From Haloplasmatales bacterium 4B (lineage in GTDB: Bacteria; Bacillota_I; Bacilli_A; Haloplasmatales; Haloplasmataceae), in the NCBI GenBank assembly GCA_003586005.1, contig NSKI01000015.1, positions 1-54,798 on the forward strand: a stretch of DNA of 54,798 nucleotides, in the 5' to 3' direction. How positions within the stretch are numbered: the first letter of the stretch is position 1; each line of letters starts with the position of its first letter. Below, piece by piece: positions 2,900 through 12,433 of this stretch. A program made the translations under genes and the position numbers. The notes under the pieces are model-generated. The model worked only from the letters and a program-made list of their open reading frames with translations. It was not told the origin of the DNA and ran no database searches.

Positions 2900-2953
2900 A
2901 TGAACAAATCTTTAAATTATAAATATGATACTATAGATAAAGGAGGAGATTGC

Positions 2954-3157
2954 ATGTTTTACCAAGGAAGCCATTATCTAATTTATAGTAAGGATAGTTT
3001 AGAATCATTCATAAAAGAAGGTGAAAATTTTTATAAACTACTAAATTATATAAAACTCAAGTTCGCTGCTTTTGTGAAATCTTTTTTAAACCTGTATACC
3101 CATTTTCCACAAATGATTGATTTGTTCAGTTTTATAGTGCAAAAAACTCAAAAATAG
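2954..3157 (+). CDS. Orphan small protein, 67 aa, unknown function
   Basis: Start ATG 2954 is fixed by an excellent AAAGGAGGAG ribosome binding site at about 2939-2948; an upstream in-frame ATG at 2900 lies in the preceding terminator and has no such site. The product begins MFYQGSHYLIYSKDS, has a mixed charged middle (IKEGENFYKLL) and an aromatic, hydrophobic C-terminal half rich in F, L and Y. No signal peptide or clear membrane helix, and I do not recognise a family. It lies about 90 bases before the promoter of the paired HTH-TPR regulators. RRNPP receptors are often encoded beside a small peptide gene, so a partner role is possible but there is no direct evidence. Confidence 0.5.
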   Translation: MFYQGSHYLIYSKDSLESFIKEGENFYKLLNYIKLKFAAFVKSFLNLYTHFPQMIDLFSFIVQKTQK

Positions 3158-3249: not shown

Positions 3250-4479
3250 ATGAAAAAAAATTTTGATTTAAAATTAATTGGTCGTATTATTAAAGAAGAA
3301 AGAAAATTTAAAAATTTAGCTCAAAAGGATTTAGCTAGTCTTTTTTCGATTAATCAAAGCACAATATCAAGAATAGAAAAAGGGGAAAATATATCACTCG
3401 AATTATATGAATTAATTCTAAAACTTTTTGATATTAATTTATTTGGTGATGAAATCTTTATGATGTCCCTGTTAAATGAAATATACATAGCAATAAAAAG
3501 TAATAATAAAAATCATGTAGAAAAAATATATGAGCATGTTATAACTTTTGATAATTTATCAATAAATGAGCACTATCTTAAATTAATCATTAAGGGTTTA
3601 TACTTAGTTTTTAATAATAAATTTACTGAGTTAGATGCATATATTCCCTATTTAAATAGGATGAAGTTTGTCTTTGAAAAACCTATATTAAAGTATTATC
3701 ATCTGATTAGGGGCTATTACTTTTATTATTTTCGTCATTATGAAAAAGCAATTAATGAATGTAACATAATTTTAACTAATGCTTACCATGATGATTTTAA
3801 AGATAATTTTTTTAATTATCTTTTTATAAATATTCAAATCCATTTTAAAAATTACGGTATTGCTCAGGAAATTTTAGAAAAAGCAAATGAATTAAATAAA
3901 AATAATAACATAATTATTAACTTGCATATTAAACACTTATTGGCTTATATATATTTTGTTGATTCAAACTATCAAGAATGTATCCAACTAATAGAAAATT
4001 GTGAGCCAGCTAACATCGAAATAAGCTTTGAGTTAAATTTTTTACTTGCTGCCTCACTTTTAGTATTAGAAAAATATGATGATGCCTATAAATACTTTGT
4101 AAATATAGTCGAAACTGATTTGTTAATTGTTAAAGAAAAAATCCATTTGTATTACGCTTACTTACTTTATTGTTTAAAATTAAATGACGATAAACTCTAT
4201 TCATATTATTATGATAAAGCAAAGTTAGAATCTTTTTATCAAAATATCAAATTGCGTAGCATATTTGAAGCCATAGTTTTATATGAACCAGAATTAAAAA
4301 ATAGTGTTTATTATGAAAATATTAATTACTTACTATTAGAAAATTGCTTAATTCATGTAAAATTACTTTATTCAATTTCAAAAACAAAAAACTGTTATAA
4401 AAAGAAATGTGCCTTTTATATGAAAATACATGAACTAATGAATAATAAAGAGATGGGGTGTTCATTTCATGATTTATAA
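3250..4479 (+). CDS. HTH-TPR transcriptional regulator, RRNPP-like (first of a pair)
   Basis: A 409-residue cytosolic regulator. Residues ~10-62 form an XRE/Cro-type helix-turn-helix: IGRIIKEERKFKNLAQKDLA, then the recognition helix NQSTISRIEKGENIS. The remaining ~340 residues are helical with TPR-like A/B pairs such as YHLIRGYYFYYFRHYEKAI and LLAASLLVLEKYDDAYKYF. This HTH plus multi-TPR layout is that of Rgg/PlcR/PrgX-type receptors, where the TPR domain can bind a short peptide and switch DNA binding; ligand binding here is inference. Ribosome binding site GAGGATAACA precedes ATG 3250. Its 3' end overlaps the next gene by 11 bases, indicating translational coupling with a second regulator of the same build. 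Confidence 0.75.
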   Translation: MKKNFDLKLIGRIIKEERKFKNLAQKDLASLFSINQSTISRIEKGENISLELYELILKLFDINLFGDEIFMMSLLNEIYIAIKSNNKNHVEKIYEHVITFDNLSINEHYLKLIIKGLYLVFNNKFTELDAYIPYLNRMKFVFEKPILKYYHLIRGYYFYYFRHYEKAINECNIILTNAYHDDFKDNFFNYLFINIQIHFKNYGIAQEILEKANELNKNNNIIINLHIKHLLAYIYFVDSNYQECIQLIENCEPANIEISFELNFLLAASLLVLEKYDDAYKYFVNIVETDLLIVKEKIHLYYAYLLYCLKLNDDKLYSYYYDKAKLESFYQNIKLRSIFEAIVLYEPELKNSVYYENINYLLLENCLIHVKLLYSISKTKNCYKKKCAFYMKIHELMNNKEMGCSFHDL

Positions 4480-5674
4480 TAATGAATACACCCTAAAAGC
4501 AAAGCTTGGTAATATTATCCAGTTTAAAAGAAATGAAGCTGCTATGTCTCAAAAAGCACTAGCTAAAGTATTAATCTATGATCAAAGTGTAATTAGCCGG
4601 ATAGAAAAAGGTTATGAAGATATAAATATTGATTTGTATATAAAGGTATTAAATTTTTACCAGACAGAAATGGTTATTAACAAGGCTTTAGAATTAGAAA
4701 TTACGCGAATTACCGAAATGATTTTTACTTCATATGAATTCTTAAACATAAATGATTTTAATGTATACTTGATTAATATTAATAATTTAATAAGAAGAAA
4801 TCGCAATATAATTAAAGCATATGATCTATTTTGCTTAAAAATGGTTTGTTTATATATGTTGCGAAATAAACAAGCTAGGACTTATTTAAATAATCTTAAA
4901 AAGCTTTATATAATTTGCGAGCCAAAATGTAAAATTTTATACCATATGATTGAAATTCAATACTATTTATATGACCGCAAAAGAAAAGACATAAATATTG
5001 AACTTAAATTTAATAGTAATGATTATGATCATGGCTTGATTCAATATCTATGGGGAAAATATTATTTTGAAACTTATAGTTACTCAAAAGCTATCGAATT
5101 TTTATCACGTGCATTAATAAGTTTTAAAAAGGAAAATAATGTCCAAAGAATTGTCAGATGTGAAATAATGAAAAATGAAATATTTTTAAGGGAAAATCAA
5201 TTTCATATTGTTAGAATTAAATCAATAGCTTTATTAAAGATAAAGGGAATTATTATTAATAATGATAAATTTACCATTTTGTTTCATTTAGGATACTGTC
5301 TATACAATTTACACGAATATCAAAAAGCACTAGCAATATTTACGAGTCTTATAGACAAAGACTTTAGTGAACATGATTTTATTTTACACCTTACTAATAA
5401 ATGTTTAGTTAAATTAAAAAAAATTCAAAGTAATGATATAGTGGAATATCATATCTTGGACAGATTATATTTTAAATATGGTGAAACATTAAACATAAAC
5501 GATGAGTATTGTGAACTAGTTGAAAAGCTAATGTATGATATTGAGTCTAATTTCTACAAAAAAGAATATCGATATTACTTAATCAATTTGCTTAATTATT
5601 ATTTTAATAATAAAAAATACTCTAAATTTCTTCAGTTATCCCATAAAATTGACAAAATTACGCATATTTTTTAA
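4469..5674 (+). CDS. HTH-TPR transcriptional regulator, RRNPP-like (second of a pair)
   Basis: A 401-residue paralog of the preceding protein. An N-terminal XRE helix-turn-helix (residues ~12-68) contains FKRNEAAMSQKALAKVL and DQSVISRIEKGYEDI. TPR-like helices follow, e.g. WGKYYFETYSYSKAIEFL and FHLGYCLYNLHEYQKALAIF. ATG 4469 lies 11 bases inside the previous gene behind a GGGGTG site, so the two are probably made together, possibly as a heteromeric pair. Sequence similarity is clear in the HTH and low in the TPR part, which would allow different ligands. No obvious hydrophobic pro-peptide gene follows; the only short frame (20 codons near 5698) lacks a ribosome binding site. Confidence 0.75.
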   Translation: MIYNNEYTLKAKLGNIIQFKRNEAAMSQKALAKVLIYDQSVISRIEKGYEDINIDLYIKVLNFYQTEMVINKALELEITRITEMIFTSYEFLNINDFNVYLININNLIRRNRNIIKAYDLFCLKMVCLYMLRNKQARTYLNNLKKLYIICEPKCKILYHMIEIQYYLYDRKRKDINIELKFNSNDYDHGLIQYLWGKYYFETYSYSKAIEFLSRALISFKKENNVQRIVRCEIMKNEIFLRENQFHIVRIKSIALLKIKGIIINNDKFTILFHLGYCLYNLHEYQKALAIFTSLIDKDFSEHDFILHLTNKCLVKLKKIQSNDIVEYHILDRLYFKYGETLNINDEYCELVEKLMYDIESNFYKKEYRYYLINLLNYYFNNKKYSKFLQLSHKIDKITHIF

Positions 5675-5731: not shown

Positions 5732-5760
5732 TTGTCTTTTTTACTTAGAATATGTATAAT
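5732..5760 (+). promoter_or_regulatory. Sigma-A type promoter with long structured leader
   Basis: TTGTCT (5732-5737), a 17-base spacer, and a perfect TATAAT (5755-5760). Transcription from here would give a leader of about 120 nt before ATG 5890, containing an early ATCTTAA/TTAAGAT pairing (5782-5788 with 5811-5817) and the 21-bp hairpin at 5836-5888. Confidence 0.7.
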
Positions 5761-5835
5761 AATATTCGTGAAGTATTACCGATCTTAATCAAAAGAGCTT
5801 ACAACTTTTTTTAAGATTCACATATACTTTTCCCT

Positions 5836-5888
5836 AAAAGTCCTTCTTTAGTTTATTTTTATTATAGATAAACTAAAGGAGGACTTTT
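5836..5888 (+). promoter_or_regulatory. 21-bp leader hairpin that buries the ribosome binding site
   Basis: Arm 5836-5856 and arm 5868-5888 are complementary over all 21 positions (20 Watson-Crick pairs plus one G-U), with an 11-base loop. The 3' arm contains the AAGGAGGA ribosome binding site of the gene starting at 5890, so translation should be blocked while the stem is closed. The stem is followed by a run of five T (5885-5889) running straight into ATG, so it could also act as an intrinsic terminator. The sequence shows the structure; whether it is a thermosensor, an attenuator or a protein-opened switch is inference. Confidence 0.8.
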
Positions 5889-5889
5889 T

Positions 5890-6684
5890 ATGCAAATAAA
5901 TGCCTTACTAAAAAAAATCATTCCTACTATTTCTGATGATACAAGCTATTATTATATTAAAACAAATAATGGACATTTTTATCATCAATATAAACAAGAA
6001 AGTATTGTTGGACTTAATAATGTTGATGTTAATTTAAGTCCCAAGCCAAAGTACTTAAAGATATTCATTGATTATTTAAAAATTAGTGACTTTGTTCTAA
6101 TAGCTAACTTTAGACATAAAAATTTTTATATTGGCGAAATAACCTCTGACATATATTATGAAAATGAGAAAATATATCGGAAAGTAAAGTGGTTGAAAGA
6201 AGTAGAATGTTTTGACTTAGGTGATAAAGCCTATAAATATATAAGTAAAGCTAACCCTATTATAAATATCAATTGTCTAGCAACAGATATAAATCGATTA
6301 CTATATCCAATATACGATAAATCTCATGTTTATCATTTTGTTTTTAAAGTTAAGCAAGAAGAAAATATTTTATTTAAAAGCTTATATGGTCTTCACCAAT
6401 TATTTGATCAAGATGAAATTATTGATGAATTAAAAATTAAAATTAGTGTTCAAAGTCCTGGAATTGTTGAACTAATTACCAATAATTTGGATATTATTAT
6501 CATGATTATTAAAACAATTAAAGTAATAAATTTACTTACAAAAAATGAAACTCCATCTAATTCCAAACTTATAAAAAAATATAATGATATTAAAAATATA
6601 TATCAGCAATATGAAATTGAAAGATTAAAACTCATTCCCCCTAAAGTAGATGATGAAATATACGAAAAATGTAAAGAAATTTAG
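5890..6684 (+). CDS. Protein with N-terminal EVE/PUA-like (Mrr N-terminal-like) domain, unknown function
   Basis: A 264-residue soluble protein. Residues ~20-115 follow the pattern of the PUA/EVE-like domain found at the N terminus of some Mrr-type and other modification-sensing proteins: YYYIKTNNGHFYHQY, then ISDFVLIANF, then FYIGEITSDIYY and YRKVKWL. The usual IaIGW motif is reduced to IVGLNNV. The C-terminal part has an SPGIVELI motif, a hydrophobic helix (~residues 195-212) and a charged tail. No nuclease domain or catalytic motif is visible, so it may read a nucleic acid or ligand without cutting. The gene has its own promoter and the occluding hairpin directly before its start, indicating tight post-transcriptional control. 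Domain recognition is by pattern only. Confidence 0.5.
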   Translation: MQINALLKKIIPTISDDTSYYYIKTNNGHFYHQYKQESIVGLNNVDVNLSPKPKYLKIFIDYLKISDFVLIANFRHKNFYIGEITSDIYYENEKIYRKVKWLKEVECFDLGDKAYKYISKANPIININCLATDINRLLYPIYDKSHVYHFVFKVKQEENILFKSLYGLHQLFDQDEIIDELKIKISVQSPGIVELITNNLDIIIMIIKTIKVINLLTKNETPSNSKLIKKYNDIKNIYQQYEIERLKLIPPKVDDEIYEKCKEI

Positions 6685-6729: not shown

Positions 6730-6987
6730 ATGAATGAAATTCATACAAATTTTTTTGAAAAAGTGTTGCGAGAAAAAGAATGTTTAATATTGTTATGTAT
6801 AAAAGATGTGGCACAAACAAATAAGGCAGAACTTGGCAAATTATATGAAGTAGGTATTTTTGTGTTATATTATGTTTACAAATTTTATTGTTGTAAAAAA
6901 CTAAATCATCAAAATTTTGATTATTTAGCCTTTCAATTGATTAAAAATAGAATGCTTGATTATATTCGAAATGATGTAAATACATAA
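6730..6987 (+). CDS. Small protein resembling sigma factor region 2, 85 aa
   Basis: Start ATG 6730 follows a good GGAGG site. The product is a small helical protein; its C-terminal half, with FDYLAFQLIKNRMLDYIRND, recalls the end of sigma-70 region 2 (iKNxilDyiR), while region 4 and the rest of a sigma factor are absent. It could be a truncated sigma-like gene, a regulator that mimics region 2, or a chance resemblance. It is 45 bases behind the EVE-like gene with no terminator in between, so the two may be co-transcribed and share the leader control. Confidence 0.4.
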   Translation: MNEIHTNFFEKVLREKECLILLCIKDVAQTNKAELGKLYEVGIFVLYYVYKFYCCKKLNHQNFDYLAFQLIKNRMLDYIRNDVNT

Positions 6988-7037
6988 TTTGGAATATTTA
7001 ACAAAAGTTTGAAAAAACTATTGTTATGGAGGATATA

Positions 7038-8864
7038 ATGAAAGTATTTAATATAAACACTGAAATTGATAAACAAAACTTAAACAAAATTATTTCTCTA
7101 TTAAAAAACAATAAAATCATAGTAAGTCCACATTCAAAGGTCTTTCCTTATCAAAAAAAATTATGGTTTGAAAATCCGTTAAATTCAAGATATTATACAT
7201 TTCAAATGCAAAGCCTAAATATGGTCGATTATTTATTAATGTATTATGAAAAATATGCTGATGATGAGTGTTTAGCTAAAGCGATGCAATTATTTTATTT
7301 ATGGTATGATGATAATTTTGTTTCAAAAACAAGCAAAAATTTTACTAGTATTGCTTATCATAATGAGACAATTGCGATTAGATTATTAATTGTCGTTCAC
7401 TTACTAAGTATTTGTTTAGATAAGGATTTATGTCTTTTAGAAGAAACATTTTTAAAAGTCATTTCTAGTCATTGTCAATTGCTTAGTGACGAATATGTCT
7501 ATATTAATGAACATCATTATGGAATTGACCAAGATATAGCACTATTAGTAGCTTCAAAGGTTTATAACCATTATTATATTAAAGATGCCTATCTTCAATA
7601 TATCCAATTAGCTAAAAAAAGGTTAAAGGCTCAACTTGAGTATTTCATCGGTGAAGATGGTTCTTTTTATGGACATTCACTACAAATTGCTTATATAATA
7701 AGTTTGCGAATAAATAACTTATTAAATTTTATTAATAAATATGATGAGGATAAAGATTTTAATTTATATATAAAAAGCAAATTAGAAAGTTTATTGGTTT
7801 TTATTTATGCTATGACAGAACCATTCGGGTATTTACCGCCAATTGGGGATAGCTCTTATATTAAAATGAATAAACATGCAATATTAAAGTGTAATTATTT
7901 ACAACCCCATTTTGAATACTTATTTAGTAACGGTAATAATGGGAAAAAATTAATTTCTAAACATGCATTTTTTAAAAAAGCAAACTATTTTATCACTGCA
8001 TCAGACGAATCTTTACATGATGATTTTTATAAATTACTTTTTTATAGTGCTAATCATTCAAATTTTCATAAACACCCAGATGACTTAGCTTTTATATTAT
8101 ATTATAAAAATTTACAACTATTTATTGATTCTGGAAAATATAATTATCAATCGGAAAATAATTATCGTAAATGCGTAACAAGTATTTATGCTCATAACAC
8201 AATATGTGTTGATTATGAACCTTACCCACTTGAAGCAAATAAAACAAACCATAGTGGAATTATTAATGTTGTTATTGATGATGATTTTGTTTATGCCAGT
8301 GGAATTAGTTGTTTATATGAAAATGTGATAATAAGAAGGAATATAATTCAATTACCATATAATTTATTGATAATCGATGATATAGATGCCAAAAGTAAAC
8401 ATGATTATGAAATTAATTTTAATTTAAATCCATTAATAGATATGAAAAGAGTAGATAAAGAATATTTTGGGTATTTAAAAAGTGAACAGGTAGTGCAAAT
8501 TAAAAACCTTTATTTTTCTAATAATTTAGATAGTCAATATCATTATGGCAATAGAAATGAATTAATAGGTTTTATGAGTAGAGAGTTGAATAAATTTGAA
8601 CCTAGTCATCATATAACGTACCATACTGAGGACAAAAAAACATTAATTATTACCCAGGTCATTTTAGGTAAACATCCTATGGATTTTGAAATTGAACAAA
8701 TTGATGGATATATAGTAATATGCGCTAACAAAACTGATGTTTACAAAATTAAAAAAACAATGTATTATCAGGAAATATATAAAAATAATGTAAAGTTAGA
8801 TGATATTAAAAATAAAAATCAATTTTTAATAAATAGTATTTATAAATTTTATCAGAACAGATAG
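7038..8864 (+). CDS. Heparinase II/III-family protein (polysaccharide lyase-like)
   Basis: A 608-residue protein with an N-terminal alpha/alpha-toroid-like helical part (residues ~20-330) and a C-terminal beta-rich heparinase II/III domain. The domain start is recognisable by NHSNFHKHPDDLAFILYY, then LFIDSGKYNY and SIYAHNTICVDYE, which is the H-D...DsG.Y...HNt pattern of the family. Such proteins cleave uronic-acid polysaccharides or sit in exopolysaccharide clusters. No signal peptide is seen, so it may act in the cytoplasm or the substrate may be intracellular. ATG 7038 is chosen because an upstream ATG at 7026 overlaps the GGAGGA ribosome binding site that serves 7038. The next gene is a CpsB-type phosphatase, again pointing to surface glycan metabolism. 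Confidence 0.7.
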   Translation: MKVFNINTEIDKQNLNKIISLLKNNKIIVSPHSKVFPYQKKLWFENPLNSRYYTFQMQSLNMVDYLLMYYEKYADDECLAKAMQLFYLWYDDNFVSKTSKNFTSIAYHNETIAIRLLIVVHLLSICLDKDLCLLEETFLKVISSHCQLLSDEYVYINEHHYGIDQDIALLVASKVYNHYYIKDAYLQYIQLAKKRLKAQLEYFIGEDGSFYGHSLQIAYIISLRINNLLNFINKYDEDKDFNLYIKSKLESLLVFIYAMTEPFGYLPPIGDSSYIKMNKHAILKCNYLQPHFEYLFSNGNNGKKLISKHAFFKKANYFITASDESLHDDFYKLLFYSANHSNFHKHPDDLAFILYYKNLQLFIDSGKYNYQSENNYRKCVTSIYAHNTICVDYEPYPLEANKTNHSGIINVVIDDDFVYASGISCLYENVIIRRNIIQLPYNLLIIDDIDAKSKHDYEINFNLNPLIDMKRVDKEYFGYLKSEQVVQIKNLYFSNNLDSQYHYGNRNELIGFMSRELNKFEPSHHITYHTEDKKTLIITQVILGKHPMDFEIEQIDGYIVICANKTDVYKIKKTMYYQEIYKNNVKLDDIKNKNQFLINSIYKFYQNR

Positions 8865-8910
8865 TTTACATAATAGCCATAATCAGTTACAATAGGTTTT
8901 GGTGATGAAA

Positions 8911-9681
8911 TTGAAATTTATAGACATGCATAACCATATAATGTATGGAATTGATGATGGAGCTAAAACTTTAGAAGAAACAATTCAATTGTTAAAATTA
9001 GCAGCAAATACAAATGTTGAGCAATTAATTGTGACACCGCATTTTAAAGAAAATATCTTTCATAATCAAAAAAACAACATAGAAACCAAAGTAAATGAAA
9101 TAAAACAAATTTTACTTGAACATAATATTGATATGAATATATATCCTGGTAGTGAAATATTTTTATCAAAAAATACTTTGGATTTATTAAATAATCAGAA
9201 ATTACAAACCTTAAATAATTCTCAATATGTATTAATTGAAACACACATGGTTAAAGATTATCAAATGATTAATGTCAGAGAAGAATTATACAATCTAAAA
9301 ATTGATGGTTATCAAGTAATTTTAGCTCATCCTGAGAGATATGAAAATACTAGAATTGATCCTAATTTTGTTTATGATTTAGTAAGTGATGGCTATTATA
9401 TGCAAATAAACGTAAATAGTTTAAAAGAAAATCATCCTAATCATAAAATTGTTAAAAAATTATTAGACAATAATCTTGTTCACTTTGTTGCTAGTGATTC
9501 ACACAATTTAAGCAATCGACCACCCTTGTTAGATAAGGGCTATCAATTTGTCGAAAAACATTACGGAAAAGATTACGCTAATGATTTATTTTATAATAAT
9601 CCATTAAGTGTTATAAATAACGAACAAATTAAAATTCGTGATTTTCAAAAAATTAAAAGCAAGAAATTTTTCTTTTTTTAA
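8911..9681 (+). CDS. PHP-family protein-tyrosine phosphatase, CpsB/YwqE type
   Basis: Residues near the start give the PHP metal motif FIDMHNHI followed by YGIDDGAKT, the hallmark of CpsB/CapC/YwqE. Further motifs are VTPHF, PGSEIFL, LAHPERY and VASDSHN, which supply the remaining metal ligands. These manganese-dependent phosphatases dephosphorylate the bacterial tyrosine kinase of capsule/exopolysaccharide systems. No CpsC/CpsD kinase pair is in the window. The start is probably TTG 8911, placed 5 bases after GGTGA (the common ribosome binding site style in this contig) and giving MKFIDMHNHI; ATG 8905 would abut the GGTG. The lysine/phenylalanine-rich tail ends in a run of phenylalanines. 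It closes the left polysaccharide-related region. Confidence 0.85.
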   Translation: MKFIDMHNHIMYGIDDGAKTLEETIQLLKLAANTNVEQLIVTPHFKENIFHNQKNNIETKVNEIKQILLEHNIDMNIYPGSEIFLSKNTLDLLNNQKLQTLNNSQYVLIETHMVKDYQMINVREELYNLKIDGYQVILAHPERYENTRIDPNFVYDLVSDGYYMQINVNSLKENHPNHKIVKKLLDNNLVHFVASDSHNLSNRPPLLDKGYQFVEKHYGKDYANDLFYNNPLSVINNEQIKIRDFQKIKSKKFFFF

Positions 9682-9715: not shown

Positions 9716-12433
9716 TTATAATATTTGAACTAATCTTGATACCTGGTTAAAGCGAATTGGTTTAGAAAAATAACTTCCTTGACCACCATCAAGTTTTAAG
9801 CTTTTTAATATCGTAAACTGTTCTAATTGATTTATTCCCTTAGCTATTAAATCAATATTCATAATTTTAGAATTTAAGCGAAAAATTTTTATGAACTGAT
9901 AATGCATACTGTCAATAGTTAGGTTTCTTAGTAAGTTTTTGTCTAATTTAATTTTTTTGATATTGTAATGTTTTAATTGAGCTAGCGAAAAATTATCCTC
10001 ACCAAAATTATCGAGAGTGAAATTAAACCCTAAGTTTGATAAATCTTGAATATTTTTGGCTATCCGATTTGAATGAATGGCAAAGTTGATAGTAAATTCA
10101 AATTCTATGAGTTTTGGATTAATTGGATATTTTTTTATTATTTCTTTTAGTATAAATATAAATTGATCTTGTTCTAATTGCTCAATTGAAATGTTTATAG
10201 ATATAGGAACAGTGAAATTCTTATTATTTGTCAACTGTTTACATACCTCTTCAAAGGTAAAGGTAAAAATTTTGTTTATTTGACCTGTTTCTAAAGCAAT
10301 TTTAAAGTATTTTTTTGTTGATAAGTTTAATTGACTTTGTTTCCACTTGATTTTGGCTTCAACTGATATAATTTTGTTTGTGTTAAGGTCATAGAGTGGT
10401 TCGTATAAAATTGTATATGCTTTTTCTTCAATAGATTTACGCATCAAGTTCGCAATTTTAAAACGTTCATCTATCCTTTTTCGCATTTTTGGATTATAAT
10501 ACACTATTTTTTTATCAAAACTTTTCTTGGCAGCATACATGGCAATATCTGCATTTTGAATTAATTCATCGCTTGTATTGCCGTCTTTAGCATATATCAC
10601 AATCCCAATACTTGCTGAAACTTGTAAATAATTATCATGATAAATATATGGTTCATTAATAGTAGAAAAAATCTTTTTTGCCATGTTCATTATCCTAATT
10701 TTATTATTAAATCCCTTAAGTAATATGACAAATTCATCGCCACCAAATCGAGCGATTAAGATGTTATCTGAGCTAATTTGTTGAAATCGTTTTGATAATT
10801 CAACTAATAATTGATCGCCAATACAATGTCCTAATGAATCATTAATCTCTTTAAAATAATCGAGATCAATAAATAGAAGGGCGATATCATTTGTTTTTTC
10901 AGTATTGAGAATATAATTTAATTTTTCGGTAAAATAAACACGATTATATAATCCTGTTAAGGCATCCTTTTGTGCTAATATTCGCATTTTCTGGTCAATC
11001 GTTTTCATTTCACTTAAATCTTTAAAAATACCAACATAATGAGTAGTAATATTTTTGCTTGTTATGGCATAAATATTTAACCATTCCGGATAAATCTCAC
11101 CCAATTTATTCTTATTCCATATTTCACCATGCCAATGATGATCATGAATTATATGATGCCACATATCCTCATAAAATGCTTTGTTTTGCAAATTAGATTT
11201 CAAAATATTGGGATTACTACCGACAATCTCAGCAAGAGTATAACCCGTAATTTTCGTAAATGCGTGATTAATCCAATCAATATGACCAAAAGAATCGGTA
11301 ATAACGATGCCTTCGTTACTGTTTTCTAATACTTTTTTAAAGACATCTAGTTGATTTTTATCCTTGATTTTTTGTGTAATATCAATGTAATGAACATAAG
11401 CACCAATAATTTTATCATTATATGTAATAGGAAAGGCAACAATCTCGACATTAATGAGCTTATTATCTTTTCTTTTTCTCAAAGTATTAATCCTAATGAA
11501 ATTTTCTTTAAATACGTTTTCAATATTATTATTTAGTTCATCATGGTATTCATTAGAAGTAATTAAGTCATTTAAATTTTTACCAAGAACCTCTTCTTTT
11601 TCATATTGAAATAAACTAGTAAATTTTTCATTGATATTAATTACATGTTGTTCATTATCTAGAATTACTATTGGGTATGGCGATTGTGTTAAGAAAGTAC
11701 TGATAATAACATTTTGTTTAACTTTTTCTGTAATATCATAAACAATGTTAAATAAAAATTGCTTATTGTTTAGAGTAATTGGGAAGCAATTTACCTCAAC
11801 ATCACGAATTTCGTTATTTTTATTGATGTGTTTTAATGAAAAGAAGTTTTGCTTATAGGCTAAAATTGATTTAATATATTTATGTATAGCATCTTCACTA
11901 CTTATAGTTAAATCATTGATTTTCATTGTTTTAAGTGTTTCTAAATCATAACCATAGTAGTCTAGAGCTGCATTATTGGCATCAATAATGTAATTAGTAT
12001 TTGGATCAAATAAATACATGACATTATTATTTTCTTCAAACAATTTTCTATAAATATAATCTTTTTCTTTAATAGTATCTTCTAACCGTCTGATCTCACT
12101 AATATTTGTTATTAAGGCAAATAAAACATTATTAATATAAACTAAATTAATGTATGCTAAAAAAGGGTCTCCATTTTTATTTAAATGAAGCCACTTGAAA
12201 TTAACGTTTTTTTCGATATAAGCTTTTTTAATAAATTCCCTACCTTTAATGTCAGACCTAATGCCATCGTCTTGATAAACTGGTGAAAGGGAAGATGGTT
12301 TTAACCCGATTATATCTTGTTTAGATTCATATCCAAACATATTTACAGCGGCTATGTTACAATCAACTATAACATCTTTATCGATAATGTAAAAAGAAAT
12401 CGGAAAATTATCAATAGTATCAATGTTAATCAC
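9716..12433 (-). CDS. PAS(x4)-GGDEF-EAL protein: likely diguanylate cyclase with degenerate EAL domain
   Basis: A 905-residue soluble sensor. Four PAS domains (about residues 1-110, 125-235, 245-355, 365-480) precede a GGDEF domain (~490-650) with DALTGLYNR and an intact RFGGDEF, the catalytic signature for making cyclic di-GMP. The RxxD product-inhibition site usually found five residues before GGDEF is absent. The EAL domain (~660-905) is degenerate: EAL reads EAK, DDFGTG reads DNFGED, EGVE reads KGIN, and the second acid of ElTE is lost; the K-D and QG motifs remain. It therefore probably does not hydrolyse cyclic di-GMP and may bind or sense it. No membrane helix is seen. The start is GTG 12433 behind AGAGGTGG, since the nearby ATG runs into a stop. 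Input signal is unknown. Confidence 0.85.
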   Translation of the reverse strand: MINIDTIDNFPISFYIIDKDVIVDCNIAAVNMFGYESKQDIIGLKPSSLSPVYQDDGIRSDIKGREFIKKAYIEKNVNFKWLHLNKNGDPFLAYINLVYINNVLFALITNISEIRRLEDTIKEKDYIYRKLFEENNNVMYLFDPNTNYIIDANNAALDYYGYDLETLKTMKINDLTISSEDAIHKYIKSILAYKQNFFSLKHINKNNEIRDVEVNCFPITLNNKQFLFNIVYDITEKVKQNVIISTFLTQSPYPIVILDNEQHVININEKFTSLFQYEKEEVLGKNLNDLITSNEYHDELNNNIENVFKENFIRINTLRKRKDNKLINVEIVAFPITYNDKIIGAYVHYIDITQKIKDKNQLDVFKKVLENSNEGIVITDSFGHIDWINHAFTKITGYTLAEIVGSNPNILKSNLQNKAFYEDMWHHIIHDHHWHGEIWNKNKLGEIYPEWLNIYAITSKNITTHYVGIFKDLSEMKTIDQKMRILAQKDALTGLYNRVYFTEKLNYILNTEKTNDIALLFIDLDYFKEINDSLGHCIGDQLLVELSKRFQQISSDNILIARFGGDEFVILLKGFNNKIRIMNMAKKIFSTINEPYIYHDNYLQVSASIGIVIYAKDGNTSDELIQNADIAMYAAKKSFDKKIVYYNPKMRKRIDERFKIANLMRKSIEEKAYTILYEPLYDLNTNKIISVEAKIKWKQSQLNLSTKKYFKIALETGQINKIFTFTFEEVCKQLTNNKNFTVPISINISIEQLEQDQFIFILKEIIKKYPINPKLIEFEFTINFAIHSNRIAKNIQDLSNLGFNFTLDNFGEDNFSLAQLKHYNIKKIKLDKNLLRNLTIDSMHYQFIKIFRLNSKIMNIDLIAKGINQLEQFTILKSLKLDGGQGSYFSKPIRFNQVSRLVQIL

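Follow-up and report, generated by a model that had tools for sequence, protein, structure and literature searches.

How is a gene expressed when its ribosome binding site (RBS) is buried in a long hairpin that runs, through a tract of T, directly into the start codon? The question is raised by gene B of Haloplasmatales bacterium 4B, which lies in a 54,798-nt stretch of contig NSKI01000015.1 (the window). The original prediction, made from the letters of this stretch, described a 21-bp stem with one G-U pair that combines RBS occlusion with a terminator-like shape, preceded by a good promoter. The elements of the leader are as follows.

5732–5760, + strand: sigma-A-type promoter TTGTCT-17 nt-TATAAT, recognised as a motif, with a similar arrangement in genomes G001 and G003
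5768–5821, + strand: conserved 5′ leader domain GTGA...AGCTTACAA...TCAC of uncertain structure, from alignment and pattern search
5830–5837, + strand: short conserved stretch TTCCCTAA (UUCCCCAA-like) just before and at the stem base, from alignment A3
5836–5858, + strand: 5′ arm of the lock hairpin, from folding, carrying the anti-Shine-Dalgarno segment 5841–5848
5853–5858, + strand: apex motif TTATTT, invariant in six genomes, which fits the NusG pause motif TTNTTT, with a predicted pause 3′ end at 5863
5859–5865, + strand: hairpin loop TTATTAT, 7 nt, from folding and alignment, containing a −10-like TATTAT at 5860–5865
5866–5888, + strand: 3′ arm of the lock hairpin, from folding and fold comparison
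5876–5883, + strand: Shine-Dalgarno (SD) sequence AAGGAGGA, all bases paired in the predicted fold
5885–5889, + strand: terminator-like run of five T between the stem base and the ATG at 5890
5890–6684, + strand: gene B, 264 aa, predicted PUA/YTH-like fold with weak PADLOC PDC-S02 matches, from homology, profile and model searches

A long hairpin over the start region of gene B

In the window copy, the leader stem (5836–5888) comprises 23 bp including two G-U pairs. Omission of the two apical pairs leaves the 21 bp with one G-U originally described, and folding likewise bears out the RBS in the 3′ arm and the T-run leading into ATG. The MFE of 5770–5900 is −39.5 kcal/mol (z −8.3); dinucleotide-shuffled versions give −14.8 ± 3.0, and not one of 200 reaches the native value. 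Among the 35 ORF starts tested in the window, gene B has the most stable leader, at −28.1 against −16.9 for the runner-up, and no other start has a helix of more than 11 bp running through its SD, compared with 23 bp here. Its hairpin is also the only terminator-like site between 5400 and 7100, where 0.1 would be expected.

The SD of the window leader is unpaired with a probability of 0.0005 at 37 °C and 0.005 at 65 °C. Folding at several temperatures had been proposed at the outset as a check, and opening by heat is not supported up to 65 °C. An RNA thermometer was rejected because the SD stays closed up to that temperature in the leaders of the window genome and G001 (unpaired probability at most about 0.01 at 65 °C); the value of about 0.2 found for G003 at all temperatures corresponds to one unpaired base of five.

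Transcription is predicted to start at about 5767, which gives a leader of about 123 nt to the ATG at 5890. The promoters of G001 and G003 read TTGTAT-17-TATAAT, so that the consensus with the window genome is TTGTNT-17-TATAAT, and in all three the −10 element is located 69–75 nt ahead of the hairpin. The predicted start agrees with the anticipated upstream promoter and places the 5′ arm in the mRNA. The objection foreseen in the original prediction, that transcription might begin inside the hairpin, fails because transcripts from the upstream promoters include the 5′ arm.

Conservation of the hairpin in Haloplasmataceae

Gene B was found in six of the eight genomes searched from the order (G000, the window genome, and G001, G003, G004, G006 and G007); 60 relatives were covered. 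The homologs outside the window belong to five other Haloplasmataceae genomes and are about 33–43% identical. In a wider contig scan, the named contigs matching gene B were mostly Haloplasmataceae, and the viral contigs scanned gave no match.

The start region lies under a hairpin followed by T-rich sequence in all six gene-B genomes. When each genome's own fold is used, two-sided (compensatory) differences occur at 12 stem positions, a count drawn from six sequences in a flexible register. Near-perfect palindromes kept by templated (quasipalindrome) mutation can imitate such change. Alignment A3 is gap-free on the 5′ side from CCCC to the loop and contains indels on the 3′ side; the stretch at 5830–5837 takes the form TTCCCCAA in G001 and G006 and appears as variants in the other genomes. 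Halves exchanged between genomes usually pair less well than native halves. The arms of G007 have almost no letters in common with those of the other genomes and pairing is kept, its own halves giving −24.7 kcal/mol and combinations with foreign halves −4 to −8.5. The G004 stem is short and interrupted, having lost most of the inner helix. The complementary arm is thus kept in six of six, and the compensatory change expected of homologous leaders is supported at these positions.

A covariance model (R1) returns one confident copy per gene-B genome and no confident copy elsewhere, where, besides the same sites on the opposite strand, weak matches have E above 0.08. Seven of the weak matches (E 0.09–0.7) were examined and contained no lock-like hairpin. 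Genome G005 has the heparinase gene and lacks gene B; no such hairpin occurs near its heparinase gene. The leader hairpin is very probably a real, conserved cis element.

The SD is covered in all six genomes, the paired segment in G007 being GGATGA, not AGGAGG. The terminator discriminant (after the d'Aubenton-Carafa formula) is positive in all six, but only narrowly in G007, whose T-run is interrupted. RBS occlusion is therefore the more constant feature, the terminator the less constant one. Folding and the homologous leaders together support the proposed combination of RBS occlusion with a terminator shape: judged from sequence, one hairpin is both.

The upstream leader

The 5′ domain GTGA...AGCTTACAA...TCAC is common to G000, G001 and G003. 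A search of 395 genomes from the class located the exact pattern at gene B in these three only, its other matches being scattered single sites. GTGA and TCAC are paired in the G001 and G003 folds and unpaired in the MFE fold of G000. No pairing between the domain and the lock hairpin was found in the folds of the three leaders. The domain is missing in the G004, G006 and G007 leaders and for this reason cannot be a universal opener. HTH-TPR regulators were rejected as its partner because the two are distributed differently, with the domain alone present in G003 and the gene alone in G006.

An alternative fold involving ATCTTAA/TTAAGAT had also been suggested. This pairing is present in the predicted fold as a separate upstream stem, which neither overlaps nor competes with the lock. 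No competing fold that frees the SD was found in the G000, G001 and G003 leaders, in either nascent or SD-free folds, and an antiterminator built from the upstream leader was rejected, there being no such pairing with the 5′ arm in the three. A leader-peptide attenuator was set aside by inspection of the same leaders, which have no SD-equipped start codon before the hairpin; their sole start candidate is a 5′-terminal GTG whose frame is not conserved. The G004 leader (L027:5860-5975) differs from the others in that candidate short ORFs accompanied by SD-like sequences occur ahead of its hairpin. No Rfam family or known riboswitch matches at the gathering threshold, sub-threshold matches resembling generic hairpins. 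Control by LoaP was likewise rejected, with no match above the NF033641 cut-off in the eight genomes, most of which contain one ordinary NusG-like match each.

The apex and possible NusG-type pausing

The apex, TTATTT followed by wTATT, is near-identical in the six genomes, with a TATA-A variant in G004. G004 retains TTATTT despite the loss of most of the inner helix. Such conservation, kept even where the motif is unpaired, would not be needed for a purely structural loop.

The NusG pause motif is TTNTTT at −11 to −6 relative to the RNA 3′ end and is insufficient for pausing by itself; an Asn-Thr pair has been linked to pro-pausing NusG (PMC12288461). In the six genomes TTATTT fits this motif at the matching apex position, and in the window the motif predicts a pause end at 5863, in the loop. 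The NusG of the window genome, aligned by eye, has Asn-Thr within VRNTP at the pause-specific residues. Around the hairpins TTNTTT occurs 2–8 times per 210 nt of AT-rich DNA, and a hairpin 11–12 nt upstream of the predicted paused end is weak in G000, G001 and G006 and poor or absent in G003, G004 and G007. The invariant TTATTT-w-TATT apex appears compatible with a NusG-type pause site.

Genes B and C and the surrounding locus

Gene B is followed in the window by the genes listed here.

6730–6987, + strand: gene C, 85 aa, stand-alone sigma-factor region-2-like, from model and profile searches
7026–8864, + strand: heparinase II/III-like gene in the same apparent operon as gene B
8899–9681, + strand: CpsB/CapC-type phosphatase gene in the same apparent operon as gene B

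The gene-B protein has no Pfam or NCBIfam match and nothing significant in a sequence search of the PDB; weak PADLOC PDC-S02 matches occur in all six members. For its AF2 model (pLDDT 69), the best Foldseek PDB matches are YTH domains (E 1.5e-4, TM about 0.5 by target). Gene B is uncharacterised, was found here only in Haloplasmataceae, and heads a polysaccharide operon despite its weak matches to defence candidates. The three-helix model of gene C is confident (pLDDT 88.6), and sigma-factor domain 2 accounts for most of its top PDB matches, at weak E-values of 0.5 and up. TIGR02895 (sigma-I) gives 0.0012 against the window gene C, and the gene-C profile also picks sigma-like proteins of 166–172 aa in G002, G003 and G007. 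The gene recalls RsoA of the two-part sigma factor SigO-RsoA of B. subtilis.

The conserved run behind gene B comprises gene C (adjoining it in four of the six genomes, G000, G001, G004 and G006), a large membrane protein, the heparinase II/III-like gene and the CpsB/CapC phosphatase. By ORF comparison, the membrane protein lies behind gene B in G001, G006 and G007; in G003 it apparently follows directly. Together, these neighbours point to an exopolysaccharide- or capsule-type locus.

Several other features flank the locus. Two adjacent HTH-TPR regulator genes of Rgg/PlcR-like architecture occupy 3250–5674; G001 carries a related pair close to the locus, and in G006 a homolog of the second gene is located some 7 kb ahead of gene B. 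The apparent remnant of a mannose-6-phosphate isomerase-like gene is found at 2690–2856 (...KGDHFIITS...ELIVSYI stop); the gene is intact in G001, G004 and G007, where it is located upstream of gene B. Gene A (2900–3157), a small conserved ORF, directly precedes the leader in G001 and G006 and is separated from it in the window by the HTH-TPR genes. On the opposite strand, a PAS/GGDEF/EAL-like gene (9716–12433) flanks the polysaccharide locus and has homologs beside it in G001, G006 and G007; a c-di-GMP linkage of the locus is possible on this sequence evidence.

Proposed mechanism and alternative readings

The hairpin with its SD occlusion and terminator shape, the two-sided conservation, the upstream promoter and the invariant apex are features of the sequence itself, from which we infer termination in vivo, pausing and a trans-acting opener. 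The hairpin is very probably an off-by-default switch. We favour, by a modest degree, a conserved default-off double lock on gene B that is opened co-transcriptionally by a putative factor; the full pause-and-capture mechanism deserves that much confidence at most. Transcription would begin about 123 nt upstream, and the hairpin would act both as an intrinsic terminator and as a cover over the gene-B SD. With the hairpin closed, most transcripts would stop in the T-run that adjoins the start codon, and read-through products would be untranslatable as long as the SD is covered. The exopolysaccharide-type genes behind gene B would probably be damped too. Expression would need the 5′ arm to be held open while the polymerase is still within the hairpin. 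A NusG-dependent pause at TTATTT would leave the 3′ end of the RNA within the loop. Since the polymerase encloses about 14 nt of RNA, the anti-SD segment (5841–5848) would by then have only just left the enzyme, ahead of any synthesis of the SD, which would let the putative factor decide.

A regulator encoded by genes B and C themselves is conceivable from their predicted folds. The gene-B protein might bind its own leader hairpin and stabilise or open it: it is predicted to be PUA/YTH-like, a superfamily that includes RNA binders, its model matches YTH RNA-binding domains best, and confident hairpin copies occur only at gene B, the heparinase locus of G005, without gene B, having none. Such autogenous control is nonetheless unlikely, as the confidence of the model is moderate, the fold region also matches PDC-S02 defence candidates and may serve another nucleic-acid role, and co-occurrence is weak evidence given that a leader always accompanies its gene. 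The gene-C protein could instead ride on the elongating polymerase, bind the loop TATTAT, hold the complex before the SD arm and commit it to read-through, in a Q-like manner. TATTAT or TATAAT is the loop sequence in the four genomes where gene C adjoins gene B, against TATTTT (G003) or TATTGT (G007) in the two where it does not, a link that rests on six genomes, too few to establish it; this role for gene C is a long shot. The same loop sequences in four genomes would also suit a guard against read-through, in which the hairpin forms only in transcripts from upstream genes and the productive mRNA starts in the loop with a free SD, and in G006 and G007 another gene does directly precede the hairpin. 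This too is improbable: in none of the six genomes does a −10 in the loop have a −35 partner with which it would form a promoter-like pair, and the consensus-like promoters 69–75 nt upstream in G000, G001 and G003 place the 5′ arm in the mRNA.

Control by a cis-antisense RNA, in the style of plasmid pT181 repC, would account for a terminator/RBS layout equal to that of pT181 (PMC5435934). It is rather improbable, since the antiterminator segment for the terminator 5′ arm that pT181 needs is absent from the three leaders and a promoter scan with inspection revealed no convincing conserved minus-strand promoter. Nuclease cleavage frees the SD of some toxin mRNAs, and a stem of at least 20 bp with a conserved AU-rich apex would be a plausible substrate for an RNase that cuts the stem or apex of the gene-B messenger; the short, interrupted stem of G004 speaks against this, and we give such processing little credence. 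Least probable is a DNA-level palindrome, an operator or recombination site with no RNA element. The inverted repeat is equally perfect in DNA and the HTH-TPR regulator genes adjoin it, but the arm letters of G007 differ completely while pairing is kept, the position is fixed relative to the SD, and G003, G004 and G007 have the hairpin but no HTH-TPR homolog.

Relation to known leaders

The original prediction knew of no described element with this exact layout. The pT181 repC attenuator has it: its terminator hairpin stands shortly before the start codon and includes AGGAG in the 3′ half (PMC5435934). As in this Staphylococcus plasmid, the default-off double lock proposed here consists of one hairpin able to block both transcription and translation (PMC5435934), and in the gene-B leader, too, the RBS forms part of the 3′ arm of a terminator-like hairpin that precedes the start codon. 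However, pT181 relies on an upstream antiterminator, which was not found in the three leaders analysed here, and on an antisense RNA, for which no convincing minus-strand promoter was seen; the leader does not belong to the pT181 type because the antiterminator was not found. The SD-to-start spacing is 12 nt in pT181 and about 6–7 nt in the gene-B leader; moreover, the former is plasmid-borne, whereas the latter sits on a chromosome and is conserved within a single bacterial family.

The leaders of B. subtilis tlrB (yxjB) and vmlR also combine terminator and SD-sequestering structures with NusG-dependent pausing, and in tlrB the pause hairpin lies at the apex of the terminator and SD-hiding hairpins (PMC6851288). 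Both work through ribosome stalling and a leader peptide, whereas no plausible ORF of this kind is present in the promoter-bearing leaders of G000, G001 and G003, and vmlR uses separate terminator and SD hairpins where the gene-B leader has a single one. In the B. subtilis trpE leader, controlled by TRAP, a NusG-dependent pause buys time for the decision on an SD-hiding hairpin (PMC12288461). The proposed lock would resemble it in a pause that gives a factor time to decide on such a hairpin, and differs in that its default fold is closed. LoaP/EAR antitermination of polysaccharide and antibiotic operons likewise places a leader element before a long biosynthetic operon; unlike it, the present system has no LoaP above the cut-off and no Rfam match at gathering. 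The layout itself is thus known, and what is new is a chromosomal version that heads an exopolysaccharide-type operon, has no evident antiterminator and carries an invariant apex.

Few natural examples have been documented of one hairpin serving as both terminator and RBS cover, pT181 repC among them. The locus may also draw attention to proteins B and C, an uncharacterised pair with predicted nucleic-acid-binding and sigma-like folds. A chromosomal double lock conserved across several genera of one family would offer a testable case for the role of pausing.
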